Assembly (NCBI GenBank): GCA_036703275.1
Contig: DATNPK010000064.1
Location: 1-64,000, forward strand
DNA: 64,000 nt
Direction of reading: 5' to 3'
From: Coleofasciculaceae cyanobacterium
Lineage (GTDB): Bacteria; Cyanobacteriota; Cyanobacteriia; Cyanobacteriales; Xenococcaceae
Shown here: piece by piece, positions 35,270-54,321 of the stretch
How the letters are laid out: each line of letters opens with the position of its first letter
How positions within the stretch are numbered: position 1 is the stretch's first letter
Notes under the pieces: model-generated
Database searches by the model: none
What the model saw: only the letters and a program-made list of their open reading frames with translations
Told to the model about the DNA's origin: nothing
Translations under genes and position numbers: made by a program

Positions 35270-36418
35270 CTACTGCCAATCTAATAAACTGAGTACTTCA
35301 TCAGCGGAAAAAGAACGTTTTTGCTCGATCGCCATATTTTTGATTCTTTCTCTAAACTCCTGATATTTTTCTGGGGGTAGAGGTTGATTGAGGTGATGCT
35401 CAAAAAGATATTGGAAATTGCTGGCGCCACTAAACTTACCAAACCAGACTTCGGGTTTTCCTTGGGCAAAAAGATAATAGCTAGAGCGATCGCAACATAA
35501 AGAATCAACATGAATACCTGTTTCGTAGCGCAAACTTGCAGGAGAGTAGGGGGCGTTGGCGTAAAATCCTTTGTTGCTTAAATAGTTAGTCACCTCAGCC
35601 AAAGCATCGTAGTTAATTCCAGCTACCCGCCAGCCATAGCGTAACTTTAAACCATTGAGAACCTGTTCGATCGCCACATTGCCCGCTCTTTCGCCAATTC
35701 CGCCAAAAGTCCCCGAAATTCCTGTTGCCCCGGCTAGAATTGCCTGGATGGTATTTTCTAAAGCCAAACCGCGATCATTATGGAAATGGACAGTAAGAGG
35801 CGTTTTATTGTTCGTAAATTCAATTAGATTACGCAGCCAAAGTTTGGTGTCTTCGGGGGTGAGAACACCCACGGTATCGCAAAGCAAGAAGTGACTGATG
35901 TAGGGCTGAAATTTAGTAATACACTCGACTAAGAAATCAAAATCAGCGCGACTGGCATCTTCGGCGGCAAAACAAATCTTTAATCTTTGAGCAGCAGCAT
36001 ATTTCAAGTGTGCTAAAACTTTAGTGATCATTTTTTGGCGGATCTGCTCGATCGCTGCTGGATTTTCAGCTGCTTGATCGCGAAACTCAGGATCTCGCAG
36101 TGAAAGTAAGCGATCGCTTACCGCATTAAACAGAATAATTGTTTCCACACCGCAGTCTTTAGAGCGATCGATGTATTTTTTTTCCATCATGGTAGAAGCA
36201 ACGAGGGTTTGTTGCATTCCCAGATTAATTAGACGTTTAGCTAACTTAGCCTCTGTCTGATGTATGGCTGGCATCAAGGCGAGGTAATGCACTCCAGTCT
36301 TGACAATTAGTTGAGCTAGTTCATGTTTGGTTTGAGCATCAAAAAAAATGCCTACCTGTTGTTCTCCGTCTCTTAGAGTTTCGTCAAAAATAGTGAGGGC
36401 AATCGTTTTCATCACCAA
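35270..36418 (-). CDS. Homocitrate/2-isopropylmalate synthase-like enzyme (DRE-TIM metallolyase)
   Basis: This 382-residue TIM-barrel acyl-transferase of the LeuA/NifV/HCS family lacks the C-terminal regulatory domain of LeuA. The active-site signature is FDETLRDGEQQ, the metal HxH is in TVHFHNDRGLALENT, and GGIGERAGNVAIEQV is the second signature. Such enzymes condense acetyl-CoA with a 2-oxo acid to an alkylmalate. It differs clearly from NifV in the substrate region (LALMPAIHQTEAK). There is no nif gene here. It is divergent from the PKS gene (143 bp) and, with the fused dehydratase at 45536, could elongate a 2-oxo acid for the PKS, as HphA does for homophenylalanine. The PKS link is inference. 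ATG at 36412 is an alternative start. Confidence 0.85.
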   Translation of the reverse strand: MVMKTIALTIFDETLRDGEQQVGIFFDAQTKHELAQLIVKTGVHYLALMPAIHQTEAKLAKRLINLGMQQTLVASTMMEKKYIDRSKDCGVETIILFNAVSDRLLSLRDPEFRDQAAENPAAIEQIRQKMITKVLAHLKYAAAQRLKICFAAEDASRADFDFLVECITKFQPYISHFLLCDTVGVLTPEDTKLWLRNLIEFTNNKTPLTVHFHNDRGLALENTIQAILAGATGISGTFGGIGERAGNVAIEQVLNGLKLRYGWRVAGINYDALAEVTNYLSNKGFYANAPYSPASLRYETGIHVDSLCCDRSSYYLFAQGKPEVWFGKFSGASNFQYLFEHHLNQPLPPEKYQEFRERIKNMAIEQKRSFSADEVLSLLDWQ

Positions 36419-36561
36419 ACATTAGCACAATAGTAATACAGAATATGCGATTTAATTAAATAAAATGGATTTTGAATCAAGATATCGCCTCAGCTGCGAC
36501 AATTTGCTATAAAGTAACTCTAAATTTGATAAATCGGTAGTGAGTGGGTTAAATAGCATCT
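36419..36561. promoter_or_regulatory. Divergent promoter region of the polyketide locus
   Basis: This 143-bp gap separates the divergent synthase-like gene and the PKS gene and must hold both promoters. It is A+T-rich; no clear operator palindrome or consensus promoter could be picked. Confidence 0.45.
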
Positions 36562-39500
36562 ATGAAACAGTTGGACGAACAAGTAAATATTTCTCTCAGT
36601 CATGGGGCTGAATTACCCAATTCTGTTTTAGCAACTACTAATTTATCAAAACTTATTCATCAAGCAGCAGCTAACAACACGGGAATTACTTATTACAGCG
36701 ATAAAAAACCAGGGTGTAGGTTCGATTTTCAATCTTATGCTGATTTACTCACACAAGCTCAACGTATTTTAAAATCTCTGCGCGATCGGGGTTTACAGCC
36801 ACAAGACAAGGTAATTCTACAGCTTCAAAATCCCCGATATTTTTTTGCTAGTTTATGGGGCTGTTTCTTGGGAGGTTTTGTACCAATTCCTTTGGGGGTA
36901 GATCTGGCGCCTAACCTGACGGATCGCAGCAGTATACTAAATCGAGCGTGGGAGTTATGCGATTCGCCGTTAATTATTAGCGATCGCGAGATTAAAGATT
37001 TAGCTTCGCTTAGAGTTGAGGATTTATTAGCTAACGAACCTGACGATCAATGGCATTGCGGTAAATTAGATGATTTAGCCTTGTTGTTATTTACTTCTGG
37101 CAGTACGGGAAAGCCTAAAGCAGTCATGCTGTCGGCGCGTAACCTCATAGCCAGTATTTATGGCATGGCCCAAATAAATCAGCTTACTGGGCAGGATATA
37201 TCTTTAAACTGGATGCCCCTCGAACACGTGGCTAGTTTGGCAATGTTTCATCTGACGCAGGTGTATTTAGGATGTCAGCAAATTCACGTCAAAAGCGAAC
37301 TGATTCTGCAAAATCCGCTACAATGGCTGGATTTAATCGATGAATATCGGGTTACGGCTACTTGGAGTCCTAACTTTGCCTATAACTTAGTCAATGAAAG
37401 GTTAGAGGATACAGCCCAACGTAATTGGGATTTATCTTGTCTGCGCTGGATGGGTAATGGGGCGGAGGCGGTTGTCGGTAAAACTACGCAGCGGTTTTTG
37501 AAGTTACTATTACCCTGTGGTTTATCGCCGAATGCTCTTAGTCCTGGTTACGGAATGTCGGAAACGACGTCAGGAATAACCCATTCTAATGACTTTTATC
37601 TTAACCTAAATCGAGAATTTGTTTCGGTCGGCGCACCTATCCCTGGAGTATCTTTACGAATTGTCAATCAAGCTCAGCAAATTTTGCCAGAAGGTGAGGT
37701 TGGCTTATTGCAGGTAAAGGGTCAAACGGTAAGTGCGGGGTATTATCAGCAGCCTGAATTAAATCAGGAAATATTTACTGCCGATGGTTGGTTAAATACG
37801 GGGGATTTAGGTTTTTTAAGTTCAGGAAGATTGACAATTACTGGCCGTCAAAAAGATGTGATTGTTATTAACGGGGTTAACTATTATAACCATGATATAG
37901 AAACGGTAGTTGAAGCGATCGCCTCGGTTACGGTTTCTTATACTGCTGCCTGTGGCGTTAAAGATAGTAACCAGCAAGAGCAAGTAGCTATTTTTTTTAA
38001 TACCCAAGAGTCAGAAGATCGCTTGAGTGAATTAATTAATCAGATCCGCAAAAACGTTTTTACTCAAATCGGCGTCGCGCCAGTCTATATTATCCCCGTA
38101 GAGAAAGAAACTATTCCCAAAACGGCGATCGGCAAAATTCAACGATCGCAGCTTAGTCAAAGATTTGCCGCCGGGGAATTTGATCGACGAATTACAGAAA
38201 TTGCCGAATTATTTAACCAGAGAAATTTAAGTCAGCAAGAGTTACCTGGTAATGCGATCGAACAGAAATTAGTTGAGGTATGGCAAGAAGTTTTAAACCT
38301 ACCCACAGTTAGCGTCAAGGATAACTTCTTTGAATTGGGGGGAAACTCTTTATTGCTGATGCAGGTATTGAGTAAACTGACTGAATATAATCACTTGTCT
38401 GCGGTGACGTTGTTTCAATACCCTACTATTTCTGCTTTGAGTAATTATCTTAATTGCGATCGCGAATCTATCGCCGTACAGCAGGGTAAACGCAAAGGAG
38501 AATTACGACGCAAAGCGACGGGTAATAAAGATGTAGCAATTATTGGGATGTCCTGTCGTTTTCCTGGGGCAAATAATTTAGAAGAGTTTTGGGATAATTT
38601 ATGTAATGGTGTAGAGTCGATTAGCTTTTTTGACGATGCAGAAATTCTAGATGCGGGAGTCGCTGCCGAGTTACTTAATCATCCTCACTATGTCAAAGCC
38701 AGTCCTATTCTGGAAGACATTGAAAGCTTTGATGCCGATTTTTGGGGTTATAGTCCTAAAGAAGCCCAGTTACTCGATCCGCAACAGCGTTTATTTCTCG
38801 AATGCGCTTGGTCGAGTTTAGAAGATGCGGGGTATGATTCTTTGACCTATGAAGGAGATATCAGCCTTTATGGTGGTGCAGCCAGCAACACTTATCTATT
38901 GAATAATCTTTATCCCAACCGTCATCTTGTTGACGAGCAAGACAGTATGGGGATAATAAATTTAAGCTCGATGGGAGGCTTTCAGGTTACTACGGCAAAC
39001 GACAAGGACTATCTTACCACTAGGACATCCTATAAACTCAATCTTACAGGTTCGAGTGTCAATGTGCAAACCGCTTGCTCTACATCCTTAGTCACGGTGC
39101 ATTTAGCCTGTCAAAGTTTAATTAACTTAGAATGCGATCTGGCTCTAGCTGGCGGTGTTTCCGTCCACTCTCCCCAGAAAATGGGTTATTTATACCAAGA
39201 AGGTATGATTTTGTCTCCCGATGGTCACTGTCGGGCTTTTGATGCGGAAGCGACCGGTACTATCTTTGGTAGTGGTGTGGGAATGGTAGTATTAAAGCTG
39301 TTAGAGCGAGCAATTGCCGATGGCGATCGCATTTACGGGGTGATCAAAGGATCGGCAGTTAACAATGATGGCGGTATAAAAGTCGGTTATCTCGCGCCCA
39401 ATGTAGACGGACAAACTAGAGTCATAGCTGAAGCTTTAGCCTTTGCCAATATACCACCTCAATCTGTCAGTTATATTGAAGCTCACGGTACAGGAACAAA

Positions 39501-42500
39501 GTTAGGCGATCCGATTGAAATTACCGCCCTAACTCAAGCCTATCAAAACGATCGCCAAGATACAGGTTATTGTGCGGTTGGTTCAGTTAAAACCAATGTC
39601 GGACATCTACAAATGGCATCGGGTATTGTGGGCTTAATTAAAACTACCCTGTGTTTATATCATCAAGAAATTGCTCCCAGTCTACACTTTAAACAACCTA
39701 ATCCCCAAATTGATTTTCCAAGTAGTCCTTTTTATATCAATACGCAGTTGCAACCTTGGGAATCAACTAACTATCCCCGTCGTGCTGGCGTTAATTCTTT
39801 GGGTATTGGTGGTACTAATGCTCATGTAATTTTAGAAGAGTTTGTCACTAAAAAAGCAGTAGACGAGCAACAGCTTCCAGCATATTTATTGACTTTATCA
39901 GCCAAAACTCAAGCTGCCTTACAAGAATTAGTCAAAAGCGATCGAGACTATTTATTCAAACATCCAGATATTCGTTTACCAGATATTTGTTTTACTAGTA
40001 ATATCGGCAGACACCACTTCGATTATAGAGTGGGTATTGTTGCGAGTAACAAATTAGAATTAGTCGATAAATTAAACCAGATATCTACAGGTGAACTTGT
40101 TCGGCAGAATAACAAACTAGCCTTTTTGTTTACAGGACAAGGTTCGCAATATGTAGGTATGGGACAACAGCTATATAAAACTCAGCCTGTTTTTCGAGAA
40201 AATTGCGATCGCTGTTTGGAGATTTTACAACTTTATCTTGACCTACCAAATGTGAGGATGAAGGGCGGTTTGTTTCTACAAGATGAATTCGCTCTCAATC
40301 AGACAGAATATACTCAACCCTTATTATTTACGATTGAATATTCTCTGACCAAACTATGGCTATCGTGGGGGATTAAACCCGATGTAGTCATGGGACATAG
40401 CATCGGAGAATATGTAGCTGCAACTATCGCGGAAGTGTTTAGTTTAGCAGATGCTTTAAAGTTGGTAGCAATTAGAGGTAAGTTAATGCAAAGCTTATCT
40501 AAGAATGGGGCGATGTTAGCTGTTTTCTGTTCTCAAGCAGAAGTTGATTTAAACTTAGATGAAAATATCAGCATTGCGTCAGATAATGGAACCCATTTAG
40601 TACTTTCTGGGTTGCAAAGTGAGATTAATAATATTGCTAAAAAGTTAGAGTTACGAGGAATAAAAACGCAATTATTAAACGTATCTCATGCTTTTCATTC
40701 TCATTTGATGCAGCCGATTATCGCAGAATTTAAAACAGTGGCACAAACTATTAATTATTCTTTGCCACAAATACCGATTGTTTCTAACCTGACGGGGGAA
40801 TTAGCCGATAAAACTATAGCTACCGTAGATTATTGGGCAAATCATATTTTGCAACCCGTTCAATTTGCGAAGAGTATTCAATATTTAGCTCGCCAACAAA
40901 TAAATATTTTTCTGGAAATTGGCACAAAACCAACGCTAATAGCAATAGTAAAAAGTATTTTAGACCGTAAATTATTTTTACCTAGTCTTGATTCTAAACA
41001 AGATGATTGGCGACAAATGTTAAACAGTTTATCACAGTTATATATGGCTGGATTAGACATTAATTGGTCACAAGTTACGCAAAACTATAATGCTCAAAAA
41101 ATATCTTTACCTACCTATCCTTTTCAGCGCCAAAGATACTGGTTCGATCTGCCTAAAGATATTAATCTAGTTCGGGCTCAAAGTAAATGCGATCGTCATC
41201 CTCAAAGATTAATTCATCCCCTACTTGGAAACCCATTATCTTCTCCCTTAAAACAAAAAATTTTTCCAGTTAATCTACAGGCTAATACGATTGACTGGCT
41301 ACAAGATCACTGTTTAGATAACAAGTCACTTTTTCCAGGTACGGCTTATTTAGAAATGGCGATTGCATCTGGATTATTTAAGTTTAAAACTAACCAGTTA
41401 ACTATTGAAGATGTAACTATTAATTCTCCTCTCTATATAAAAGATGATTTACCCGAAATTCAATTAATTTTATCTCCTAAGCAAGATACTGCTACCTGGG
41501 AGATTTATAGTTTAGATAACGGTGATTGGCAATTACATTGTGCTGGTAAAATTTTAGCTTCAAATCAAACAGCAACAAGTATTGAATTAGCAGCGATTAA
41601 AGCGCAATTTCAAAATGCTCAATTGGATGTTGAACAATACTATTTACAATGTAAACAAGGAGGACTAAATTATGGTAAAAGCTTTCAGGGAATAAAACAA
41701 TTATGGGCAAAAGATAACCAAGTATTAGGAGCAATTGAGTTACCCAGTAATTTAAACAGCAGAGAATACCATTTACATCCTGCACTATTAGATTCTTGCT
41801 TACAAATATTATTTGCAGCTAAAGCTGCAGAAGATCGAACTACAACTTATATACCTGTCGGTTTAGATAAATTAAATCTATATACTCTGGCTGACAACAA
41901 AGTTTGGAGTTATCTCGAATTAAGACAAGATAATAGCCAGAATAAAATTATAATAGCAGATGTTTGGTTATATAGCGATCGCGGCGATCTAATTGCCAAA
42001 CTTGAAGGCTTGAAATCTCAGGCGATTAATTTCCAACCCCATTGGCATAATTGGCTATATCAGCAGGAGTGGATTAAGCAGTCTTTACTAACAAAATCTT
42101 CTTTATCCAATCAGGCTGGTACGTGGTTGGTTTTTGCAGACAACACGGGTATTAGTGAAAAGTTAGTTACGCTATTCAAAATACAGCAGCAGCAATGTCA
42201 TCTAGTTATCCGCAATACTGTTACAGATAACCCTGAAGCATTTCCAACTCTAATTCAACAGCATGAAGATATAGCAGGAGTTGTTTATCTCTGGAGTTTA
42301 GATAGTGTAGAAGATTGGACAGAGTGTAAAAGTTATTTGTATTTAATCCAGGCTTTGATCCAACACCCAGCTAATCCTCCCCTGTGGTTGGTTACCCGCA
42401 ACGCACAACCTGTAGATAACTATCAACTGACATCAGGAATTAACAACTCTTGTCTTTGGGGAATGCAAAAAGCGATCGCACTAGAACATATAGAATTAAA

Positions 42501-44814
42501 ATGTGTTGGTATCGATCTAGATCGCAATCCTACAGATAACGAAGCCGAAAGTATTTTTCAAGAAATCTGCACGGGAGAAATTGAACAGGTTGCATATCGC
42601 CGTCATCAACGTTATGTATCGCGTTTAGTTCAAGCTAACTTAACTGAATCTAAATTAAATCAACAGCTACAAATAAGTCATGCGGGTAATTTAGATAGTT
42701 TGCAGTGGAAACCGATTACTCGTTCACAACCTCAAGATCGTGAAATTGAAATTGAGGTAAAAGCAACTGGGTTAAATTTCCGCGATGTAATGATCGCTTT
42801 AAACTTATATCCTGACGAGACAAAATTTTTAGGTTTAGAGTGTGCGGGAGTAGTTACCGCAGTGGGTAAAGCAGCAGGCGACTTTCAACTTGGGGATGAA
42901 GTAGTTGCTATATCTGCCAACAGCTTTAATCAGTATCTTACTGTTGATTCTAGACTGGCTATCCATAAACCAGAATTCAGTTTTGCTCAAGCTGCAACTA
43001 TTCCCGTAACCTTCCTCACTGCTTATTACACCCTTTCTTCTGTAGCGCAACTACAGCCAGGAGAAAAAGTCTTAATTCACGCAGCAGCAGGTGGTGTCGG
43101 TTTAGCCGCTATTCAAATAGCACAACGTCTAGGCGCAGAGGTTTTTGCTACGGCTTCGACTCCCAAGTGGGAATTGCTTAAGTCTATGGGAGTAACTAAC
43201 ATCATGAACTCCCGTAGTCTGAGTTTTGCTGAAGAAGTTATGTCTGCAACCCATGGTGAAGGTGTGGATGTGGTGTTAAACTCTCTTTCTGGTGAATTTA
43301 TCTCCAAAAGTATCTCGGTGTTAAACGATCGCGGACATTTTATCGAGATAGGTAAACAGGGTATTTGGTCGGTCAACGATGTCGCCCAAGTTAAGCCAAG
43401 TATTAATTACTCGATTGTCGATCTGTGGCAAATTACTCAAGAACAACCTGAACTAATTCAGCAGATGTTGGCTAAGTTGCGATCGCAATTTATGACCAAA
43501 GAACTAAAACCTCTACCCCACAAAGTATTTACTCGGGACAACACTATCGCTGCTTTCCGCTATATGCAGCAGGGGAAACATCAGGGAAAAATTATTATTA
43601 CCCAGGACAATAGATCGGATAAACGTGAGGGTAAACAGTCGTTTGCCCCTACCACTAACTGCACCTACCTCATCACAGGTGGAATGGGTGCAATTGGCTT
43701 GGAGGTAGCGCAATGGCTAATAACCAAGGGCGTAACTAATCTTGTCTTGCTTGGACGTAGCGGAGTAAAACCCGAATTACGGGACAAACTGCAAAAAATA
43801 CAAGAGAATGCTCAAGTTAATCTTATTAAAGCAGATGTTGCTGATACAAATCAACTAGCCCAGGCTTTATTACAAATTGAATCTACATTACCACCCTTGC
43901 GCGGAGTAATTCATTGTGCAGGAGTTATCGACGATCGCAGCATATCTAACCAAGATTGGTCGAGCTTTAGCGAAGTTCTCGCACCCAAAGTACAGGGAGC
44001 ATGGAATTTACACTCCTTAACCCAGAAATACGCCCTAGAAAGCTTTATTTTATTCTCTTCGGCTAGTTCTCTCTTAGGTTCGCCAGGACAAGCTAATTAT
44101 TGCGCTGCTAATGCTTTTCTCGATACTTTAGCCCATGGTCGCCGTAGTTTAGGATTACCTGCGATCGCTATTAATTGGGGTGCATGGAACAATACGGGAT
44201 TAACTGCTAACACGCAAATAACCGCTAGTCTGCAACAGAGAGGAATTGGCAGTATTAAACCGATTCAAGGAATAGAAATATTAGAACAGTTACTATTAGA
44301 TTTTCCAGCGCAAATTGGCGTAGTTCCTCTTGATTGGCAGGTATGGCAAGAAAATAATCTTGCTACTCCTTTTCACAGTAATTTTGTTTTAACCAATACT
44401 TCGGGCAATAATACTGATATTAAACAGCAACTATTAACTATAGATATTACTCAACGCCGAGATTTATTAATTAAAAATATTAGTGAACAAGTAGGCAACA
44501 TTTTAGGTATCAAAGATCTTAATAAGATTGATGTAAATTTAGGTTTTTCCGAATTGGGTTTAGATTCCCTCGGTTCAGTAGAACTAAGAAATAAACTTCA
44601 GTCTAGTTACGCTCTAAAACTATCTCAAACGGTTATTTTTGATTATTCTAATATTAATTCACTAGCAGATTATTTATTAACAGTCATTTGGGAAAATGTG
44701 CCAATCAAAGATAATATTGATTTTAAAGATAACACCCAAACTCAAGTTGAAACTATGACGGATGTTGAAGCAGAAGCTTTACTTTTAGAAGAATTAAAAG
44801 ACTTTGATTTTTAA
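36562..44814 (+). CDS. Type I polyketide synthase, A-ACP-KS-AT-DH-psiKR-ER-KR-ACP
   Basis: The protein is 2750 residues. Domains: adenylation (1-555, LFTSGSTGKPKAV near 176, YGMSETT); ACP1 (about 565-640, GGNSL, Ser596); KS (656-1090, Cys839, His975, His1015); AT (about 1186-1500, GHSIGE Ser1280, HAFH motif predicting malonyl-CoA); DH (about 1555-1820, His1583, Asp1744; the HxxxGxxxxP motif has Asn for Gly); structural KR (about 1830-2020); ER (2040-2350, HAAAGGVGLAA); KR (2365-2545, Ser2500, Tyr2513, IDD motif); ACP2 (Ser2669). The last residues (EAEALLLEELKDFDF) are an acidic docking tail. There is no thioesterase. It is therefore a loading plus one fully reducing module that should pass its chain to another protein, probably the KS at 47408. 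The adenylation domain has WMPLEHVASLAMFH, reminiscent of starter domains for hydroxy/oxo acids (PksJ A1 type) rather than classical FAAL; this is memory-based. Confidence 0.95.
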   Translation: MKQLDEQVNISLSHGAELPNSVLATTNLSKLIHQAAANNTGITYYSDKKPGCRFDFQSYADLLTQAQRILKSLRDRGLQPQDKVILQLQNPRYFFASLWGCFLGGFVPIPLGVDLAPNLTDRSSILNRAWELCDSPLIISDREIKDLASLRVEDLLANEPDDQWHCGKLDDLALLLFTSGSTGKPKAVMLSARNLIASIYGMAQINQLTGQDISLNWMPLEHVASLAMFHLTQVYLGCQQIHVKSELILQNPLQWLDLIDEYRVTATWSPNFAYNLVNERLEDTAQRNWDLSCLRWMGNGAEAVVGKTTQRFLKLLLPCGLSPNALSPGYGMSETTSGITHSNDFYLNLNREFVSVGAPIPGVSLRIVNQAQQILPEGEVGLLQVKGQTVSAGYYQQPELNQEIFTADGWLNTGDLGFLSSGRLTITGRQKDVIVINGVNYYNHDIETVVEAIASVTVSYTAACGVKDSNQQEQVAIFFNTQESEDRLSELINQIRKNVFTQIGVAPVYIIPVEKETIPKTAIGKIQRSQLSQRFAAGEFDRRITEIAELFNQRNLSQQELPGNAIEQKLVEVWQEVLNLPTVSVKDNFFELGGNSLLLMQVLSKLTEYNHLSAVTLFQYPTISALSNYLNCDRESIAVQQGKRKGELRRKATGNKDVAIIGMSCRFPGANNLEEFWDNLCNGVESISFFDDAEILDAGVAAELLNHPHYVKASPILEDIESFDADFWGYSPKEAQLLDPQQRLFLECAWSSLEDAGYDSLTYEGDISLYGGAASNTYLLNNLYPNRHLVDEQDSMGIINLSSMGGFQVTTANDKDYLTTRTSYKLNLTGSSVNVQTACSTSLVTVHLACQSLINLECDLALAGGVSVHSPQKMGYLYQEGMILSPDGHCRAFDAEATGTIFGSGVGMVVLKLLERAIADGDRIYGVIKGSAVNNDGGIKVGYLAPNVDGQTRVIAEALAFANIPPQSVSYIEAHGTGTKLGDPIEITALTQAYQNDRQDTGYCAVGSVKTNVGHLQMASGIVGLIKTTLCLYHQEIAPSLHFKQPNPQIDFPSSPFYINTQLQPWESTNYPRRAGVNSLGIGGTNAHVILEEFVTKKAVDEQQLPAYLLTLSAKTQAALQELVKSDRDYLFKHPDIRLPDICFTSNIGRHHFDYRVGIVASNKLELVDKLNQISTGELVRQNNKLAFLFTGQGSQYVGMGQQLYKTQPVFRENCDRCLEILQLYLDLPNVRMKGGLFLQDEFALNQTEYTQPLLFTIEYSLTKLWLSWGIKPDVVMGHSIGEYVAATIAEVFSLADALKLVAIRGKLMQSLSKNGAMLAVFCSQAEVDLNLDENISIASDNGTHLVLSGLQSEINNIAKKLELRGIKTQLLNVSHAFHSHLMQPIIAEFKTVAQTINYSLPQIPIVSNLTGELADKTIATVDYWANHILQPVQFAKSIQYLARQQINIFLEIGTKPTLIAIVKSILDRKLFLPSLDSKQDDWRQMLNSLSQLYMAGLDINWSQVTQNYNAQKISLPTYPFQRQRYWFDLPKDINLVRAQSKCDRHPQRLIHPLLGNPLSSPLKQKIFPVNLQANTIDWLQDHCLDNKSLFPGTAYLEMAIASGLFKFKTNQLTIEDVTINSPLYIKDDLPEIQLILSPKQDTATWEIYSLDNGDWQLHCAGKILASNQTATSIELAAIKAQFQNAQLDVEQYYLQCKQGGLNYGKSFQGIKQLWAKDNQVLGAIELPSNLNSREYHLHPALLDSCLQILFAAKAAEDRTTTYIPVGLDKLNLYTLADNKVWSYLELRQDNSQNKIIIADVWLYSDRGDLIAKLEGLKSQAINFQPHWHNWLYQQEWIKQSLLTKSSLSNQAGTWLVFADNTGISEKLVTLFKIQQQQCHLVIRNTVTDNPEAFPTLIQQHEDIAGVVYLWSLDSVEDWTECKSYLYLIQALIQHPANPPLWLVTRNAQPVDNYQLTSGINNSCLWGMQKAIALEHIELKCVGIDLDRNPTDNEAESIFQEICTGEIEQVAYRRHQRYVSRLVQANLTESKLNQQLQISHAGNLDSLQWKPITRSQPQDREIEIEVKATGLNFRDVMIALNLYPDETKFLGLECAGVVTAVGKAAGDFQLGDEVVAISANSFNQYLTVDSRLAIHKPEFSFAQAATIPVTFLTAYYTLSSVAQLQPGEKVLIHAAAGGVGLAAIQIAQRLGAEVFATASTPKWELLKSMGVTNIMNSRSLSFAEEVMSATHGEGVDVVLNSLSGEFISKSISVLNDRGHFIEIGKQGIWSVNDVAQVKPSINYSIVDLWQITQEQPELIQQMLAKLRSQFMTKELKPLPHKVFTRDNTIAAFRYMQQGKHQGKIIITQDNRSDKREGKQSFAPTTNCTYLITGGMGAIGLEVAQWLITKGVTNLVLLGRSGVKPELRDKLQKIQENAQVNLIKADVADTNQLAQALLQIESTLPPLRGVIHCAGVIDDRSISNQDWSSFSEVLAPKVQGAWNLHSLTQKYALESFILFSSASSLLGSPGQANYCAANAFLDTLAHGRRSLGLPAIAINWGAWNNTGLTANTQITASLQQRGIGSIKPIQGIEILEQLLLDFPAQIGVVPLDWQVWQENNLATPFHSNFVLTNTSGNNTDIKQQLLTIDITQRRDLLIKNISEQVGNILGIKDLNKIDVNLGFSELGLDSLGSVELRNKLQSSYALKLSQTVIFDYSNINSLADYLLTVIWENVPIKDNIDFKDNTQTQVETMTDVEAEALLLEELKDFDF

Positions 44815-44822
44815 GCCGCTTT

Positions 44823-44838
44823 GCTAATAGCTATTAGC
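44823..44838. repeat. 16-base perfect palindrome between convergent genes
   Basis: GCTAATAGCTATTAGC, identical to 18373-18388, lies 8 bp after the PKS stop. It also encodes the last codons and stop (KANSY*) of the SRPBCC gene on the other strand. It could act as a two-way terminator. Confidence 0.75.
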
Positions 44839-45450
44839 TTTTGAACTTTGAGAACGTTGAGTAATTTCTTGAGCGATCGCCTTTAAAGTATTTTCCAAAT
44901 AACTTTCATAAATGCCATAAAAAAAAGGCTTCTCTGTATTGGATTCAGGCTCTACTTTTACCCGATGAGTCACTAGTATTTGGCGAGAATTTATCTGTTT
45001 TATTTGCCAAGTTCCTGATAAAGATTTTAGATCGCCTTGGAACTGCTGAAAATCTACTTTATATGGCTTAGTTTCTTTCGCCTCAATTTGTACCGTAAAT
45101 TTTTCTTTAAAAAACAATAAGTCAACAACATTTACCTGCTCGAATATTTTGCGATCGCCTCGCTCTACAACTATCTTACTTGAGGCAATATTTGGCATAA
45201 AACTAGGAAAATTGTTGTAATCAGTTAATACTTGCCATGCTGTATCGAGATTACCTGTTGCCAATACTTGTCCAAGATAAGCTCCCTTTTCACCCTTAAG
45301 TATTACCTTGCCTTGATTTAAGTTAGTCTGTTCTTGAGTTGATAGTTTGACTTCACTGGCAGCATTCTGAGCCAAGACAGTAAAATTTAGACTAAAACTA
45401 ATCAACCCAATAAAAAGAGTAATTTTAGTTAATTTGAGATAATTAAACAT
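44824..45450 (-). CDS. Exported SRPBCC (START/cyclase-like) protein
   Basis: This 208-residue protein has a signal peptide (residues 1-27, LNFTVLAQ) and an SRPBCC helix-grip domain: GKVILKGEKGAYLGQVLATGNLDTAWQVLTDYNNFPSFMPNI and LSGTWQIKQINSRQILVTHRVKVEP patterns, in the COQ10/polyketide-cyclase superfamily. These bind hydrophobic ligands. Its position as the last gene of the KS-dehydratase-SRPBCC run suggests it binds or processes the polyketide product, but an exported location argues for a binding or transport role over cyclisation. The C-terminal KANSY comes from a repeat. Confidence 0.8.
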   Translation of the reverse strand: MFNYLKLTKITLFIGLISFSLNFTVLAQNAASEVKLSTQEQTNLNQGKVILKGEKGAYLGQVLATGNLDTAWQVLTDYNNFPSFMPNIASSKIVVERGDRKIFEQVNVVDLLFFKEKFTVQIEAKETKPYKVDFQQFQGDLKSLSGTWQIKQINSRQILVTHRVKVEPESNTEKPFFYGIYESYLENTLKAIAQEITQRSQSSKANSY

Positions 45451-45535
45451 TAATTATAAGGGCAGTAATTAGGGTTAATTAAACATCAAGAAGTAACAAT
45501 TTTAACAGAGAGATCGCCAATCTGGTTCCAGCAAA

Positions 45536-47305
45536 TTAAACTAATTTATGACTAATCTTGCCTTGAATTGCGGAAATACTAACTACCCTGGGAGAAGCTA
45601 AATAACTTTTTCCTGTAGGATCGCCAGTACGCCCTGTAAAATTGCGGTTAGTTGCATAAATTCCCGTCTCCTGTTTACCTAACACTCCCTTACCAGAATT
45701 AATACAAGCACCACAGCCAGACTTAAGAATTTGCACGCCTGCTCGTTCAAAAATATCAAAGTAGCCCAACGCTTCTGCTTGCTGACGTACTGACACAGAA
45801 GCGGGAACAACATACATTTGCACGTTTGGGTTAACACGCCGATTATCTAACACCTTGGCTACCTCGGCTAGATCCGATATTTTCCCCCCTGTACAAGAAC
45901 CAACAAAGGCGAGAGTAATTGGTACTTCTGGTAAATCACTAATCCCAACAACCCGATCTGGTTTTGGGGGACAGGCTATTTGAGGTTCTAAATGAGTCAA
46001 ATCGAATTGGTAAATGCGATCGTATTCAGCATCCGCATCGCCTGTTATAGCGTCAAACTCAACTTGATCAACGGTCAGAGCAGGCTCCGTCGTTTTATAT
46101 GCGGAGCGGTATCCTTTAGGACGGCGGAGTAATCTCTGACTTTGCTCTTGGAGATATTTAGCGGTAATAGCATCAGGTGCAATCAAACCGCACATTGCGC
46201 CACACTCAACCGCCATATTACTAAGAGTCATCCGTTCATCGATGGATAGCTGTTGGATAATACTTCCCCCAAATTCAATTACCTTCCCAATTGCACCCTG
46301 ACAGCCGATCTTACCCAAGATAAAAAGCATAATATCCTTGGCACTGAGATGTTCGGGTAAAGTTCCTGAAAGCTCAAGCACAATTGTATCGGGAACACGA
46401 ATCCACATATCCCCTGTAGCTAGTATGTTTGCCATATCGGTAGTTCCTACCCCCGTCGAAAAACTACCAAACGCGCCATAGGTACAGCTATGAGAATCAG
46501 TACCCGCAATAATCATTCCTGGATGGATTAAACCCTGTTCTGGTAACAAGACATGACAAATTCCCGCTGCTTCCCCAGGTGAGACTAGATCGAACAGCTT
46601 GCAGTTATATTGAGCAGCAAAATCTACCATATCCTGATAAAGCTTAGTAGCCTGGGAATCTACTCTAATATCATTAACTTGAATAAAATGATCGGCAACT
46701 AACACCACCTTGCTAGCGTCCCAAATTAGCCTATTTTCGCCAAAATTTTGCTGAAATTGCCGAAATACTGGTGCTGCGATCGCATCATGAGACATTGCCA
46801 AATCTACCTTGGCAAATATAACCTCCCCAGGTTGCACATAACCATTTCCTGAAGCTTTAGCGAGCATTTTCTCCGTCATGGTCATCAAGCGAGGTGCTGT
46901 ATTACTTTGGGGAACAGTAATCTTGTTGTTTAGACGCTGTTGATTAAAAGCAGTTAATCCCCCTGCTGTGGAAATAGCTTTGACTACGGGATTGTCTTGA
47001 TGATCGCCAATAATTTCCAAATCCAGACCAATATTTATACTGTTGCGGTAAAAAATTTCGGCAAAAGACTCAGCGCGAACTAACTTAATTCCTGCTGCTT
47101 TGATGGCTATGGGTGCATACTCCCGACTCGAACCACAGCCAAAGTTCGATCCTGCTTCAATCACCTGGTAATCTAACAAGCGATCGATGCCGATTATATG
47201 TTCTAAAACATAGTGCTTCAGGTGTTCGGGATCGGGGTTAGTAGTACGATGAGCAGGAATAATGTCATCGGTATTAATATCATCGCCAAGTTTTAGTGCT
47301 TTCAT
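45536..47305 (-). CDS. Aconitase-family dehydratase, LeuD-LeuC order fusion
   Basis: In this 589-residue fusion, residues 1-165 are the small-subunit (LeuD/swivel) domain, starting MKALKLGDDINTDDIIPAHR with GSNFGCGSSREYAP. The rest is the large subunit with AGTDSHSCTYGAFGSFSTG and the [4Fe-4S] cysteines Cys471 (GSCTGG), Cys531 and Cys534 (GCGAC). It should isomerise an alkylmalate such as 2-isopropylmalate or homocitrate via dehydration. HphCD of homophenylalanine synthesis is a fused relative known from cyanobacteria. A repeat-coded insert (RRPKGYRSAY, about residues 394-403) sits in the loop before DAEYDRIYQFDL. It lies between the KS gene and the SRPBCC gene in a minus-strand run. The decarboxylating dehydrogenase partner is not in the window. 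Confidence 0.9.
   Translation of the reverse strand: MKALKLGDDINTDDIIPAHRTTNPDPEHLKHYVLEHIIGIDRLLDYQVIEAGSNFGCGSSREYAPIAIKAAGIKLVRAESFAEIFYRNSINIGLDLEIIGDHQDNPVVKAISTAGGLTAFNQQRLNNKITVPQSNTAPRLMTMTEKMLAKASGNGYVQPGEVIFAKVDLAMSHDAIAAPVFRQFQQNFGENRLIWDASKVVLVADHFIQVNDIRVDSQATKLYQDMVDFAAQYNCKLFDLVSPGEAAGICHVLLPEQGLIHPGMIIAGTDSHSCTYGAFGSFSTGVGTTDMANILATGDMWIRVPDTIVLELSGTLPEHLSAKDIMLFILGKIGCQGAIGKVIEFGGSIIQQLSIDERMTLSNMAVECGAMCGLIAPDAITAKYLQEQSQRLLRRPKGYRSAYKTTEPALTVDQVEFDAITGDADAEYDRIYQFDLTHLEPQIACPPKPDRVVGISDLPEVPITLAFVGSCTGGKISDLAEVAKVLDNRRVNPNVQMYVVPASVSVRQQAEALGYFDIFERAGVQILKSGCGACINSGKGVLGKQETGIYATNRNFTGRTGDPTGKSYLASPRVVSISAIQGKISHKLV
46097..46127 (-). repeat. Dispersed repeat inserted in frame in the dehydratase fusion
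   Basis: ATATGCGGAGCGGTATCCTT continuing TAGGACGGCG matches 49594-49623 at all but two positions of about 28. It codes the RRPKGYRSAY loop of the dehydratase. Confidence 0.85.
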
Positions 47306-47314
47306 AATGTTTTT

Positions 47315-47332
47315 TAGCTATTAGCTATTAGC
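47315..47332. repeat. TAGCTAT heptad array upstream of the dehydratase gene
   Basis: Two and a half TAGCTAT heptamers (47315-47332) lie in the 5' leader of the dehydratase gene. The same heptamer array is found at 49642-49664, and its palindromic form at 44823 and 18373. Confidence 0.75.
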
Positions 47333-47407
47333 TTTTTTAAATATTGATATACATTACTATGTTTTCTTTCGATCTTTGGCGTATTCTACTCTATCACTTT
47401 GAACAAT

Positions 47408-49402
47408 TTAATCGTTCCAATAAGTACTTCTTTGGAAAGGATAGGTAGGAAGGGTTATTTTTTTGCCACCACTTTTTTTAGCTAATACTTTCCAGTCGAT
47501 CGCTATTCCTAATACATATAGTTGAGCTAGTCCAGATAATATTTGCCAATTGTTTGATTCAGATTTAATTTGAGAGCAGATAATATTTTGTGATGCGTTA
47601 TTTTTTCTAGTTATGGTGGTGTTATTTAACTCCCAACAAATATCGGCTAGATCCGAAGCAACTAAAGGATTAGCAATTAAAGATTCGATTAATTCTGGTA
47701 ACTCTTTACTTGCTGATTGTGATTTTAAAGCAAGTCTTGGTTCTTGATTAAGATTAGCCTTTCCCTGCCATAATTTTGTTGGGGTTTCCCCAGAAATAAA
47801 CTGAGTTAATTTAATTTGTAAATCTGCGGTAGAAGTTACGGTAGTAGCTAAGCGATGATTAAAATGCGATCGCCCTGTATTTGTAGTACAGCAGATATCT
47901 TCAATTAAAAGATGGGGATGTAATTTTAAAAAACTAAGATAGTTTGTCGTGAGTTGAGACAAAGCTTGATTACTTCTGGCTGATAAAGTAAATAAAAATA
48001 TATCTTGCTCCGTGTCTCCCCGTTTTCCCGTCTCCCCCTCCAGAGAAATACTAGCTTCTTGAACCACAACATGAGCATTAGTACCGCTAAAACCAAAACC
48101 ACTAACTCCAGCTAGGCGGGGTTGTGCTGTTTTGTTCCAGGGTATCGCTTTCTCTGGTAGTTGGAACGGTAGATTTTGCCAATCTACATTATTATTTAAA
48201 TTTTTTAAGTGTAGATTACGAGGAATCAACTTATTTTCTAAAGCTAAGACAGTTTTAATTAAACTAGCTATACCCGATGCCGATTCTAAGTGACCAATGT
48301 TAGTTTTTACCGCACCTAAAATTAACTGTTGATTATCTGGAAATACTTTGCTCAAAGCTTCAATTTCGATCGCATCTCCCAAAGCTGTTCCCGTACCGTG
48401 GGTTTCTAGATAACTAACCTGTTGTGCTTCGATTCTACTGTTAAGCAAAGCCTGTTTAATTACTGCTTGCTGAGACAAACTATTAGGAGTGGTAATACTG
48501 CTGGTGCGTCCATCCTGATTAGTAGCCGAACCTAATAAGATAGCTCTAATATTATCTCGATCGGCGATCGCATCACTAAGTCTTTTCAATACGACTATGC
48601 CGCAACCTTCAGATCGCACAAAACCATTTGCATCGCGATCAAAAGTCTTACAGCGTCCATCAGAGGACAGCATTTTTGCTCTTGAAAAATTTAGACTAAT
48701 CTTGGGAGAAATTAAGCGGTTAACTCCTCCTGCTAGAGCCATATTGCACTCGCGATCGCGTAAACTTTTAATCGCTAGATGTACTGTGACTAAGGAAGAT
48801 GAACAAGCCGTATCTAGCGAGATACTCGACCCGGTAAAATTAAAAAAGTGCGATATACGTCCTGATGCCAAACTATGAGTATTCCCTGTAGTAAGATAAG
48901 CATCAATCTCTGTTTCTTTTTGGTTCAATAGCTGATGCCAATAGTCTATAGCTGAAACACCGATAAATACTCCAGTCTGGCTACCTTGAACTAAATCGGC
49001 AGCAATAGCTGCATTTTCCAATGCTTCCCAACTAACTTCTAATAATAATCTTTGTTGCGGATCTAAACTAGCAGCTTCTCTGGGTGCAATACGGAAAAAA
49101 CTAGCATCAAATTCTTTGAGATGAGGCACAAATCCACCGTAGGTAGAGCAAATTTTTTCTGGTGTCTTCGATTGAGTATCGTGGTATTTCAACTCCTCCC
49201 AGCGTTCGTTAGGAATCTCAGTAACAGCATCTCTTCCCTCTTTTAACAACTGCCAAAATTCCTCGGAATTATCTGCGCCAGGAAAACGACAACCCATACC
49301 TACTACAGCAATTGACTCATGTTTAGCCTGTTCGAGAGTCTTTAGTTTGCTTTGCATTTGTCTCAGCGCAAGTAAAGCCTTTTTAGTAGGAGATAAATCC
49401 AT
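47408..49402 (-). CDS. Stand-alone polyketide ketosynthase lacking AT and ACP
   Basis: In this 664-residue protein, residues 1-28 form a helical docking segment (LSPTKKALLALRQMQSKLKT) typical of KS N-termini that receive a chain from another PKS. The KS domain is complete (30-450; Cys200 in DTACSSS, His335 in ETHGTGT, His371 in NIGHLES). The KS-AT linker follows (465-550). The whole AT core is then missing: there is no GQGSQ or GHSxGE motif, only a poor-complexity stretch (555-610). The usual post-AT linker (LSGLAQLYVLGIAIDW, LPTYPFQRSTYW, 620-664) then closes the protein. No ACP or release domain follows. Residues about 454-466 (LEGETGKRGDTEQ) are repeat-coded. It probably extends or releases the chain from the PKS at 36562, using trans partners. 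Confidence 0.92.
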   Translation of the reverse strand: MDLSPTKKALLALRQMQSKLKTLEQAKHESIAVVGMGCRFPGADNSEEFWQLLKEGRDAVTEIPNERWEELKYHDTQSKTPEKICSTYGGFVPHLKEFDASFFRIAPREAASLDPQQRLLLEVSWEALENAAIAADLVQGSQTGVFIGVSAIDYWHQLLNQKETEIDAYLTTGNTHSLASGRISHFFNFTGSSISLDTACSSSLVTVHLAIKSLRDRECNMALAGGVNRLISPKISLNFSRAKMLSSDGRCKTFDRDANGFVRSEGCGIVVLKRLSDAIADRDNIRAILLGSATNQDGRTSSITTPNSLSQQAVIKQALLNSRIEAQQVSYLETHGTGTALGDAIEIEALSKVFPDNQQLILGAVKTNIGHLESASGIASLIKTVLALENKLIPRNLHLKNLNNNVDWQNLPFQLPEKAIPWNKTAQPRLAGVSGFGFSGTNAHVVVQEASISLEGETGKRGDTEQDIFLFTLSARSNQALSQLTTNYLSFLKLHPHLLIEDICCTTNTGRSHFNHRLATTVTSTADLQIKLTQFISGETPTKLWQGKANLNQEPRLALKSQSASKELPELIESLIANPLVASDLADICWELNNTTITRKNNASQNIICSQIKSESNNWQILSGLAQLYVLGIAIDWKVLAKKSGGKKITLPTYPFQRSTYWND
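48011..48041 (-). repeat. GGGGAGA-type short tandem repeat coding part of the KS protein
   Basis: On the minus strand this reads GGGGGAGACGGGAAAACGGG then GAGACACGG, a purine-rich short-tandem-repeat type seen widely in noncoding cyanobacterial DNA. Here it is translated as LEGETGKRGDTEQ between the KS domain and its linker. Confidence 0.65.
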
Positions 49403-49469: not shown

Positions 49470-49664
49470 GCACAAAGCGAAGTAATGCTGCGTCGTCTTA
49501 CGACGACGATCTGCGCGGGGCGTATAAAGGAGGACACGGGTGGCGAACCAAGTTCGCCACCGTGAGATGTCCGTGTCGCAGCAAAGCTACGACCATATGC
49601 GAAGCGGTATCCTTTAGGACAGCCCCTTGCGTACGCGCTGCGCTATTAGCTATTAGCTATTAGC
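49470..49664. repeat. Mosaic of dispersed repeats between the PKS and glycan loci
   Basis: In order: CGTCGTCTTACGACG hairpin near 49490; GGTGGCGAACCAAGTTCGCCACC-type 10-bp stem with CAA loop near 49538-49560, flanked by GACACGG and CCGTGTC; the ATATGCGAAGCGGTATCC repeat at 49594-49623; a GCGTACGCGCTGCGC palindrome; and a TAGCTAT/GCTATTA heptad array (49642-49664) ending next to the O-antigen ligase stop. There is no coding potential. Confidence 0.8.
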
Positions 49665-49665
49665 T

Positions 49666-50955
49666 TTATCTATCAATGGCATACTGATTGTTTTTAGCCA
49701 TGACTAAAGAATAAGATATTGCTGCGTACATTGCCCAAAAAGAACTACTCATAGTGGTTATAGTACCCTCGGTTAAATTCGACAGCAAAATATACGACAT
49801 AAACAAAAGAGGCCAAAACCCTTCTGGAGCATTGGTTTTTCTCAGCAACGCTAAAGATTGCCCTATGGTAGTAAGAAAACTTACCATGAACACAATTAAC
49901 CCAATCAATCCAATGGAGAGCCAAATATCGAGAAATCCGTTGTGAGCATAAATTATAGGTATTCTCATTGCCAACTGCACATAGCCAGAAGGTCCTTCAT
50001 AACCATTCCAAAACGCAGCCAGTCCGTAACCCAACCAAGGACGTAGTTGAATCTGATCCCAAACATATTGCCAAATATCTGTTCTTCCTGATAAAGTCGC
50101 GTCTTTTCCTACAGAACCAAACAAAGAATCCGAACCAATATATCCAGTAACCAAAACAATAGCAAACAAACCAATGATGGTTAGGGCTAATACTGCTAAA
50201 ATGAGCACTTCATATCGCCATCGGAAAATACGATAGATAATACACAACAGCAACATGAAGACAAAAGTACCTAGAGCTGTTGTGGATTGAGACAGGGTCA
50301 TGGCAGCACAGCTAAGAGCTAACAAGCACCAATAAATCCAGCTATATTTTTGTCCTCGAAGAGCGTTTAAGCAAAAAATAACGCCGCTAGGAGCCATAAA
50401 TGCGCCAAACTGATTTTTATGTGTGAATACGCCTCGCAAAGCGCCTTCATGGACCCCAGCCATTAATCCGTATTGGGGTATGGCTACTACAAACAAAACA
50501 CTTAAAATCAATAGTAATCCATAGGTCCAACCTAGCAAATCCATCTGTTCCGTAAGACTGTAGCGGGTTGCCAAATATAGACCAAAAGCAGTGGTTCCGA
50601 GCGCGTAAATAGTAAACCTCAGAGTTTGGTCTGGATTTATTGACCAAAAATAGGAAAAACAAACGATTCCCATTAATATCCAAAGAAATTTATTGTCAAA
50701 AAGCACTGGCAGAAACCTTTTCCATCTCACCGTCAAAAGAATCAAGGTGATCGCGTAAATTAGGAGTGAGATCTTGGCATTGAGCGACAAATCGAAGCTG
50801 CTAAGATCTATACCATCTCCTTCATTAACTCCTTTAGTTAGAAGAAGAGGCGTGATGGCATTAGACATATGAATTAAAGCGAATATGGAAAAAACAAATT
50901 CAAAAATTCTCAGTGTACTGCCTTGGCTTTTTGTCTGTATATAAACGCTGTCCAT
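49666..50955 (-). CDS. O-antigen ligase/polymerase (Wzy/WaaL-like) membrane protein
   Basis: This 429-residue protein has about 11 membrane spans and a large periplasmic loop after residue 275 (SLFGSVGKDATLSGRTDIWQ, IYAHNGFLDIWLSIGLIGLIVF), the signature of the Wzy_C O-antigen ligase/polymerase family. It would polymerise or transfer lipid-linked oligosaccharides at the periplasmic face. It ends the minus-strand run GT4-PIG-L-FkbM-ligase (102-bp gap to FkbM). Confidence 0.87.
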   Translation of the reverse strand: MDSVYIQTKSQGSTLRIFEFVFSIFALIHMSNAITPLLLTKGVNEGDGIDLSSFDLSLNAKISLLIYAITLILLTVRWKRFLPVLFDNKFLWILMGIVCFSYFWSINPDQTLRFTIYALGTTAFGLYLATRYSLTEQMDLLGWTYGLLLILSVLFVVAIPQYGLMAGVHEGALRGVFTHKNQFGAFMAPSGVIFCLNALRGQKYSWIYWCLLALSCAAMTLSQSTTALGTFVFMLLLCIIYRIFRWRYEVLILAVLALTIIGLFAIVLVTGYIGSDSLFGSVGKDATLSGRTDIWQYVWDQIQLRPWLGYGLAAFWNGYEGPSGYVQLAMRIPIIYAHNGFLDIWLSIGLIGLIVFMVSFLTTIGQSLALLRKTNAPEGFWPLLFMSYILLSNLTEGTITTMSSSFWAMYAAISYSLVMAKNNQYAIDR

Positions 50956-51057
50956 AAAGACTAAAATAATTTAACTGTTTTTTAAGGTTAATCGATCCTC
51001 CATAGCTTTGACAGTAATTTTTAGTAATCACAAAAACAGAAATAATCTTAAATAATC

Positions 51058-53991: not shown

Positions 53992-54321
53992 ACTAATGAC
54001 ATCTCCTATTCAAGTATTAAATAAAAATATCACCTTTTTAAAATATTTAATATCTACCTTTTGCCTGATGAATTATCAATTATTGTATTGATTGTTAATC
54101 TAATTACGTTTTTTTTCCTGCTATTTATTTACAAAGTCTTAATATTATTATTTTCCGCTTCACTCAAATTTTATCTTCAGCCATAGTTATGCCTTATGTG
54201 CAACATAAAAATTAAGAAAAGTTTACATATAAAGATTTAAAAAAGTAGCTAAATTATCAATTGTTAGTATAATTATTAAGAATTGCTACTCTTTTATGTT
54301 TTTTGGTCTATTTTATTAATT
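53992..54321. promoter_or_regulatory. Divergent A+T-rich regulatory region of the glycan locus
   Basis: This gap separates the GT4 and flippase genes. TATAAT at 54268-54273 is a good -10 candidate for the flippase gene; transcription would then begin about 54280, favouring the TTG start at 54322 over that at 54283. No gene content is seen. Confidence 0.5.

Follow-up and report, generated by a model that had tools for sequence, protein, structure and literature searches.

HphA- and HphCD-like enzymes beside a cyanobacterial polyketide synthase belong to a conserved gene set that may lead to sphingoid-like lipids

Why should a cyanobacterium encode enzymes for the lengthening of 2-oxo acids right beside a modular polyketide synthase (PKS)? 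The question is raised by positions 35270-49402 of a stretch of 64,000 nucleotides from a Coleofasciculaceae cyanobacterium (the window, contig DATNPK010000064.1), in which a synthase resembling the homophenylalanine enzyme HphA and a dehydratase of the HphCD type are interleaved with PKS genes. The window represents one part, about half, of a real and conserved gene set, whose dedicated HphB and PKS-fused alpha-oxoamine synthase (AOS) are partners located elsewhere, and we regard it as highly probable that all parts are linked in a single pathway. The host assembly comprises 5.6 Mb in 116 contigs, with the window on contig C64 (75.6 kb). G000 denotes the host genome, other G numbers the compared genomes, L the loci and C the contigs of G000.

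All five open reading frames (ORFs) that the original prediction had placed at 35270-49402 are present there with the domains described for them (Pfam, NCBIfam), and the one gene that had been left unnamed encodes an SRPBCC protein. The features are as follows.

35270-36412, minus strand (probable gene; ORF 35270-36418): HphA-like 2-oxo-acid elongating synthase with an HMGL fold (PF00682, 1.1e-43)
36413-36561, no strand: intergenic region common to the divergent hphA and PKS1, defined by its position between both starts
36562-44814, plus strand: PKS1, FAAL-ACP-KS-AT(HAFH)-DH-ER-KR-ACP with a C-terminal docking-like tail (Pfam, motifs, orthologues)
44824-45450, minus strand: accessory SRPBCC (Polyketide_cyc) protein (PF03364, 1.8e-15)
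45536-47305, minus strand: HphCD-like fused small and large isopropylmalate-isomerase-type dehydratase, LeuD/LeuC-like (PF00694 and PF00330)
46064-46143, no strand: 80-bp interspersed repeat inside the dehydratase gene, with copies elsewhere in the genome
47408-49402, minus strand: KS2, stand-alone ketosynthase with an N-terminal docking-like stretch (Pfam)

Domains and catalytic motifs bear out the pairing of a synthase-like enzyme with a fused aconitase-type dehydratase. The synthase contains the HxH, GIGER and His motifs, and the Fe-S cysteines C471, C531 and C534 of the dehydratase are invariant in four aligned sequences. The synthase ORF opens with TTG at 36418, and the ATG at 36412 is probably the genuine start. 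Its structure model is of the barrel type (mean pLDDT 81.6; residues 296-322 unreliable).

Could the pair serve primary metabolism? The original prediction had conceded that its own reading would fail if these were the only LeuA/LeuCD copies of the genome. They are not, because G000 contains further HMGL-type genes (C84, C62), a LeuC-like (C70), a LeuD-like (C96) and an aconitase-like gene (C89). Together with scores under the cut-offs these copies rule out housekeeping leucine or lysine genes: the best NCBIfam matches of the synthase are nifV and LeuA, and nifV (193 bits versus a cut-off of 463) as well as the other 20 families shown all stay below threshold. A homologue of HphA (E 1e-60 or better) is present in 14 of 386 genomes of the phylum, host included, and two kinds of context can be distinguished. 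Thirteen rows are canonical, comprising hphA-hphB-hphCD operons and loci with ABC transporters and frames resembling non-ribosomal peptide synthetases (NRPSs); they were classed by cluster label, and only for L037 and L042 were members also scanned with Pfam. The other 19 rows are PKS-type loci. The window synthase is 52-58% identical to HphA from hph-operon and NRPS loci and 56-79% identical to the PKS-type homologues. In the HphA tree the 13 canonical rows form one supported group (100/99) with the 19 PKS-type rows outside; the tree is drawn from its midpoint and carries no claim on which group is older.

Which enzyme closes the homologation cycle? The original prediction had left the choice between a housekeeping LeuB and an alkylmalate unit, and neither is borne out. 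The HphB of the intact operon in L037 was searched in 21 genomes already carrying HphA, and its match in G000 lies at C82:63246-64283 with 62% identity, whereas the next one, on C53, reaches 41%. HphB of at least 61% identity is found in 15 of the 16 genomes with a PKS-type HphA (G390 has 45% fragments only) and in all five with a canonical HphA, including the source of the query. A homologue of HphCD is likewise present under 17 of 17 searched genome labels, which correspond to 15 distinct genomes (G411 equals G402 and G412 equals G409, with identical coordinates). Orthologues of HphA, HphB and HphCD are all encoded in G000, and with a dedicated HphB, distinct from LeuB, the host encodes a full homologation cycle. 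The view that an alkylmalate or alkylmaleate itself serves as building block could draw on the window, L029, L032, L034 and L058, where HphA and HphCD lie together near PKS1 without hphB, but the presence of HphB in the same 15 of 16 genomes, in several of them beside HphCD or the AOS, makes it very improbable.

A lengthened 2-oxo acid calls attention to the enzyme that would use the corresponding amino acid, and the original prediction had found none. This no longer holds: the amino acid is probably used by an alpha-oxoamine synthase domain that forms part of a second PKS, and not by an NRPS. The protein, PKS2-AOS, turned up in the search with KS2 and is located on C82 (43515-51185), 12 kb from hphB, with the order KS-AT-DH-ER-KR-ACP followed by PF00155. 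The best PDB matches of its terminal domain are the serine palmitoyltransferases (SPTs) 3a2b and 8guh (1.2e-71); the best NCBIfam models are BioF and SPT, with all 11 models under their cut-offs, and the sequence TLSKS is present, which we take to be the pyridoxal-phosphate (PLP) lysine motif. An orthologue with 64-100% identity occurs in 17 of 40 hand-chosen genomes, and these 17 rows form one group in a 42-row tree (SH-aLRT 96, short tree search). It has to be distinguished from a second AOS, a paralogue with a length of about 545 aa that shares 60-63% identity with the PKS2 domain and is present in most family genomes with or without the pathway (e.g., L201:7194-8834 on C60 of G000). No NRPS partner was found among the scanned proteins of the window, and one with a thioesterase (TE) does adjoin HphA in L042. 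As a side observation, a protein resembling PagL-type lipid A deacylases lies directly beside PKS2-AOS in G000 (L129:13467-14111) and G011 (L036:613-1533), the two copies being 53% identical.

How could the PKS genes of the window reach this enzyme? PKS1 has 2750 aa and contains the KS, AT (GHSIGE, HAFH), ER, KR and ACP motifs; its DH shows HPALLD and HxxxNxxxxP, with Asn replacing the usual Gly, and HAFH presumably specifies malonyl-CoA. The loading-plus-one-module architecture originally proposed is thus correct and can be refined, as the module also contains an ER and therefore looks fully reducing. The separate ketosynthase protein has likewise stood up to scrutiny: KS2 (664 aa) ends in a post-AT linker without AT or ACP, there is no room for an AT, and C200, H335 and H371 are invariant in ten aligned orthologues, on two of which Pfam itself was run. 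Orthologues of PKS1 are 44-75% identical and retain the C-terminal EAEALLLEEL-type tail in the 15 proteins listed, and the N-terminal tail of KS2 is also conserved. Tails of this kind serve as docking elements, and from the conserved ends PKS1 is predicted to dock to KS2. In a search of the 19 genomes already holding another pathway part, a stand-alone KS2 orthologue of at least 54% identity was found in 18 (partial in G403 and G406), with a piece at a contig end in the 19th, G418. Two other classifications of the PKS were rejected. PKS1 is not an olefin synthase, as it lacks the C-terminal sulfotransferase and thioesterase, and the system is not a trans-AT PKS, as PKS1 and PKS2 have their own AT and only KS2, which is also devoid of an ACP, has none. 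A separate olefin-synthase-type PKS is encoded on C11 of G000 (L130:5497-13713; FAAL-ACP-KS-AT-KR-ACP-sulfotransferase-hydrolase).

Do the parts travel together? Co-occurrence was counted in 27 genomes of the host family, 22 of which are at least 90% complete. FAAL matches of at most 51% identity were set aside as other FAAL proteins (G386, G401, G410 and second copies in G402, G386 and G387), and AOS matches of at most 63% as paralogues. G403 was counted as HphA-positive from an 82-residue match at a contig end, the HphCD of G403 and G406 is partial, and G407 was counted as HphA-negative, its HphA belonging to the canonical group. HphCD and PKS1 are found together in 12 genomes, singly in none, and both are missing in 15 (Fisher 5.8e-8). 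For the PKS-type HphA and PKS1 the numbers are ten with both, two with PKS1 only (G406, G407) and 15 with neither (Fisher 7.8e-6). PKS2-AOS and PKS1 co-occur in nine genomes, with AOS only in one (G405), PKS1 only in three (G387, G390, G407) and neither in 14 (Fisher 4.0e-4); among the 22 genomes at least 90% complete the respective counts are nine, zero, one and 12. A regular absence of the two enzymes from homologous PKS loci, which the original prediction had named as evidence against itself, was not found at the genome level, where all 12 family genomes with PKS1 have HphCD; at the locus level, the Hph enzymes are not always adjacent to PKS1. Ten of the 12 possess the PKS-type HphA. No HphA was detected in G406, whose PKS1 match begins at the first bases of a contig, inside the FAAL, so that a neighbouring HphA would be lost from the assembly. 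G407 (L066) has PKS1 and KS2 without a PKS-type HphA and a canonical hphA-hphB-hphCD operon instead; this pattern would fit the swap of one HphA source for another, a tentative reading because the genome is 81% complete.

The order of the genes provides a second line of evidence. HphA and PKS1 form a divergent pair in 15 of the 19 PKS-type loci (14 of 17 after removal of the doubles L026/L060 and L027/L061), with a gap of 35-226 bp in 12 loci and of 636, 1056 and 1332 bp in L036, L033 and L063, respectively; such an arrangement is absent from L027, L061, L062 and L065. HphB is located downstream of PKS2-AOS on the same strand in G413 to G418, with 65, 33, 42, 278, 513 and 111 bp between the matched stretches. 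In the seventh genome outside the host family, G011, HphB and AOS are 8.0 kb apart, and the close pair is thus found in six of seven. In G413 HphB is followed by HphCD, and KS2 and HphB are separated by 2208 bp in G399, 42 bp in G409 and 280 bp in G387. In G011, HphCD and HphB and then PKS2-AOS, HphA, PKS1, KS2, the SRPBCC protein and a short-chain dehydrogenase/reductase (SDR) are assembled within 33 kb. HphA, HphCD, HphB, PKS1, KS2 and PKS2-AOS are all carried by G409 and by G402, which (as G402/G411) belongs to the same genus as the host. The claim of a compact locus had to be given up: in G000 the genes of the window and those on C82 are at least about 70 kb apart (about 26 plus 44 kb) even if the nearest contig ends were joined, and the pathway occupies no fewer than two remote sites. 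Its genes lie scattered in the host family and closer together in other groups. That the synthase and dehydratase are HphA/HphCD-like and tied to the PKS, as originally proposed, is supported, and the association is conserved across several cyanobacterial groups.

These arrangements also bear on the possibility that HphABCD feeds an anabaenopeptin-type NRPS elsewhere in the genome, with PKS and AOS forming a separate pathway that is neighbouring by chance. A precedent is Phormidium sp. LP904c, in which the anabaenopeptin cluster contains the hph genes and these are believed to supply microcystin synthesis elsewhere (PMC6562525), and the NRPS adjoining HphA in L042 points in the same direction. 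The divergent HphA-PKS1 pair of 15 of the 19 loci, the position of HphB after PKS2-AOS in six of the seven genomes outside the family and the co-occurrence of the parts within it argue against such a coincidence, and we judge it improbable.

If the Hph enzymes do serve the PKS-AOS line, which 2-oxo acid do they lengthen? The pocket of HphA comprises A73, D157, A159, M186 and S242, which have been tabulated beside the corresponding residues of homocitrate synthase (HCS) and isopropylmalate synthase (IPMS), and position 157 is counted among those less conserved in HphA and thought relevant to the side chain (PMC12961565). We carried this numbering over from one canonical row, L041, which fits four of the five HphA residues. 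Ala159 and Ser242 are present as in HphA in all 19 PKS-type rows, a pattern unlike that tabulated for HCS and IPMS. Position 73 is Ser and position 186 Leu or Ile; both Ser73 and Leu186 are also seen among the canonical rows. The latter are variable at 73, 157 and 186, with Asp, Glu, Asn, Gly or Lys at 157 and Met186 in none. The window synthase is therefore likely to use an HphA-like substrate, as judged from these residues, with a question at 157.

A number of observations weigh against the proposed pathway. Position 157 is Cys in 17 and Ser in two of the 19 PKS-type rows and never Asp, so the 2-oxo acid used may differ. This supports the rival view that the same AOS receives an amino acid derived from a different 2-oxo acid, non-aromatic or larger (e.g., 2-oxoisocaproate or indolepyruvate), that the Hph enzymes have lengthened, which would change the side chain of the product; the replacement affects a residue thought relevant to that side chain (PMC12961565), but the HphA-like Ala159 and Ser242, the occurrence of Ser73 and Leu186 in canonical rows and the 52-58% identity to canonical HphA speak against it, and we hold the rival to be unlikely. 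A large divergent frame, assigned to the broad PKS/NRPS cluster by its cluster label only, is also seen at three of the canonical HphA loci (L037, L045, L047). HphB adjoins the AOS in none of seven host-family genomes; the two are 18.5 kb apart on opposite strands in G000, 0.38, 1.1 and 3.6 Mb apart in G400, G408 and G396, and on separate contigs in G399, G402 and G409. The family genomes are related, and the Fisher values consequently overstate independence. In G387 (96% complete), G390 and G407, PKS1 and KS2 are present and AOS matches do not exceed 61%; G405 possesses the AOS but gave no match to HphA, HphCD or PKS1. Finally, long AOS-bearing frames without a close HphA occur in G296 (2760 aa), G123 (2465 aa) and G382 (1693 aa), from which it follows that an AOS needs no homologated amino acid.

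The frame of G296 is part of a cassette (L198:603-12295) with a FAAL protein upstream and, downstream, an SDR that is 60% identical to the one of G011. This simpler cassette could make an ordinary sphingoid base by PKS, and its lack of a close HphA suggests that a PKS-AOS pathway either gained or lost the Hph enzymes. KS2, the SRPBCC protein, the SDR and a membrane protein of G011 are encoded by successive ORFs whose ends overlap. The best PDB match of this SDR is the 3-ketodihydrosphingosine reductase TSC10 (1.3e-34; next 5.9e-28), and no 3-ketosphinganine reductase (KDSR) model is among its best 25 NCBIfam rows. In another alternative, the AOS takes serine, alanine or glycine and yields a normal sphingoid base, the Hph enzymes making an aryl-alkanoic acid as starter for the FAAL. 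SPTs as the closest solved structures of the AOS domain are compatible with this view, as is PfSgaB, the AOS of a bacterial PKS/AOS pair, which has SPT activity (PMC12134224), and the proximity of hphA to the FAAL-bearing PKS1, seen in 15 of 19 loci, fits it too. Against it stand an additional decarboxylation of the 2-oxo acid, which it requires and which is explained by no gene found, and the position of hphB beside the AOS in six of the seven genomes outside the family. We judge this alternative improbable.

From the genes, domains, motifs, co-occurrence and synteny we infer a route in which the amino acid, the fatty acid and chain, the succession of KS2 and PKS2 and the product are all predicted. 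HphA and HphCD of the window together with HphB of C82 would extend a 2-oxo acid by one carbon, the most likely substrate being phenylpyruvate or 4-hydroxyphenylpyruvate, and a general aminotransferase would then provide L-homophenylalanine, homotyrosine or a similar amino acid. In parallel, the FAAL of PKS1 would load a fatty acid, which PKS1 may extend by a reduced C2 unit before the chain docks to KS2 and PKS2 adds a second reduced C2 unit. The AOS domain of PKS2 would join the ACP-bound acyl chain to the homologated amino acid in a decarboxylative condensation that sets free a long-chain alpha-aminoketone. A 3-ketosphinganine-reductase-like SDR, as seen in G011, could finally reduce it to an amino alcohol, i.e., a sphingoid base with an arylethyl side chain instead of CH2OH. 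The complete product scheme, in which a homologated and probably aromatic amino acid and a fatty acyl chain extended by the PKS are condensed to a sphingoid-like aminoketone, is the one that we favour with moderate confidence.

Several described systems share parts of this logic. The homologation of L-Phe and L-Tyr by HphA, HphB and HphCD in Nostoc punctiforme and anabaenopeptin loci has orthologues of all three enzymes here, and the same chemistry is expected. HphABCD of Nostoc and microcystins with homo-amino acids have been summarized (PMC6562525), and the enzymes are known for peptide natural products (PMC6562525, PMC12961565); here, they are encoded at separate sites in association with PKS1 and PKS2-AOS, and residue 157 differs. 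PfSgaAB of Pseudomonas fluorescens MYb115, which makes sphinganines, likewise passes a polyketide chain to an AOS in a sphingoid-type logic, and consists of one iterative PKS and a separate AOS with SPT (serine) activity in a two-gene cluster (PMC12134224). The present system differs by its FAAL start, its two fully reductive PKS proteins plus a KS-only protein, the fusion of the AOS to PKS2, the homologation enzymes and the dispersal of its genes. PLP domains embedded in PKS/NRPS assembly lines have been surveyed, with prodigiosin named among them (PMC3870968). They resemble PKS2 in having a PF00155 AOS-type domain in a carrier-protein line, and chain and amino acid differ. PigH and SxtA (saxitoxin) are presumably examples of such embedded AOS-type domains, and we know of no homologation enzymes attached to these systems. 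The cyanobacterial olefin synthase Ols (FAAL-ACP-KS-AT-KR-ACP-ST-TE) has the FAAL-ACP-KS-AT start in common with PKS1, but it ends in a sulfotransferase (ST) and a thioesterase, whereas PKS1 has DH and ER and neither ST nor TE. In fungal pathways of the fumonisin and AAL-toxin type the polyketide chain is released by an AOS-type enzyme, the PKS being iterative and the AOS a stand-alone protein. To our knowledge, these pathways are devoid of Hph enzymes. Their sphinganine analogues offer a further comparison (PMC7711896).

In the open-access literature, which holds work on HphABCD, FAAL and PKS/AOS, we found no description of the combination of Hph enzymes and PKS-AOS. The main text of a review on FAALs (PMC11837247) does not mention aminotransferase, oxoamine, palmitoyltransferase, PLP or homophenylalanine, and none of the Pleurocapsales PKS clusters in the accessible lists of PMC7381351 and PMC8472315 is recognizable as the present set. 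For Nostoc punctiforme no sphingolipids and only a BioF-type AOS have been reported (PMC8895605). The wider proposal is that cyanobacteria make a novel class of sphingoid-like lipids, with an HphABCD-lengthened amino acid in the place of serine, on a FAAL-primed PKS-AOS line whose gene set is kept in several cyanobacterial groups though scattered over the chromosome in the host family; it appears to us evenly balanced. If true, HphABCD would act beyond peptide synthesis, bacteria would have another PKS route to sphingoid-like lipids besides SgaAB (PMC12134224), and the finding would bear on the de novo synthesis of such lipids by cyanobacteria. The pathway would moreover be kept as a genomic set while unlinked, and cluster finders based on proximity would see only unrelated PKS fragments in the host family.

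Some minor features complete the picture. The SRPBCC protein has a homologue adjoining PKS1 or KS2 in eight other loci (L026, L058, L059, L060, L121, L122, L143, L144), and its N-terminus looks signal-peptide-like by eye. A conserved polytopic membrane protein with about 10-12 hydrophobic segments lies near HphB in G000 and G409 or near the SDR in G011 (L119:7019-8710, L135:10507-12018, L144:4093-5877); the copies scanned had no Pfam, NCBIfam or PDB match. Beyond KS2, at higher coordinates, the window continues with exopolysaccharide-type genes (49666-55596) for Wzy, an FkbM methyltransferase, PIG-L, GT4 and a flippase. The 80-bp repeat at 46064-46143 is inserted in frame into a variable loop of the dehydratase and is missing from 15 of 15 other aligned sequences. 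It is about 98.7% identical over 79-80 bases to two genome copies and about 75% identical to two more, and a 29-bp piece of it recurs at 49595-49623.

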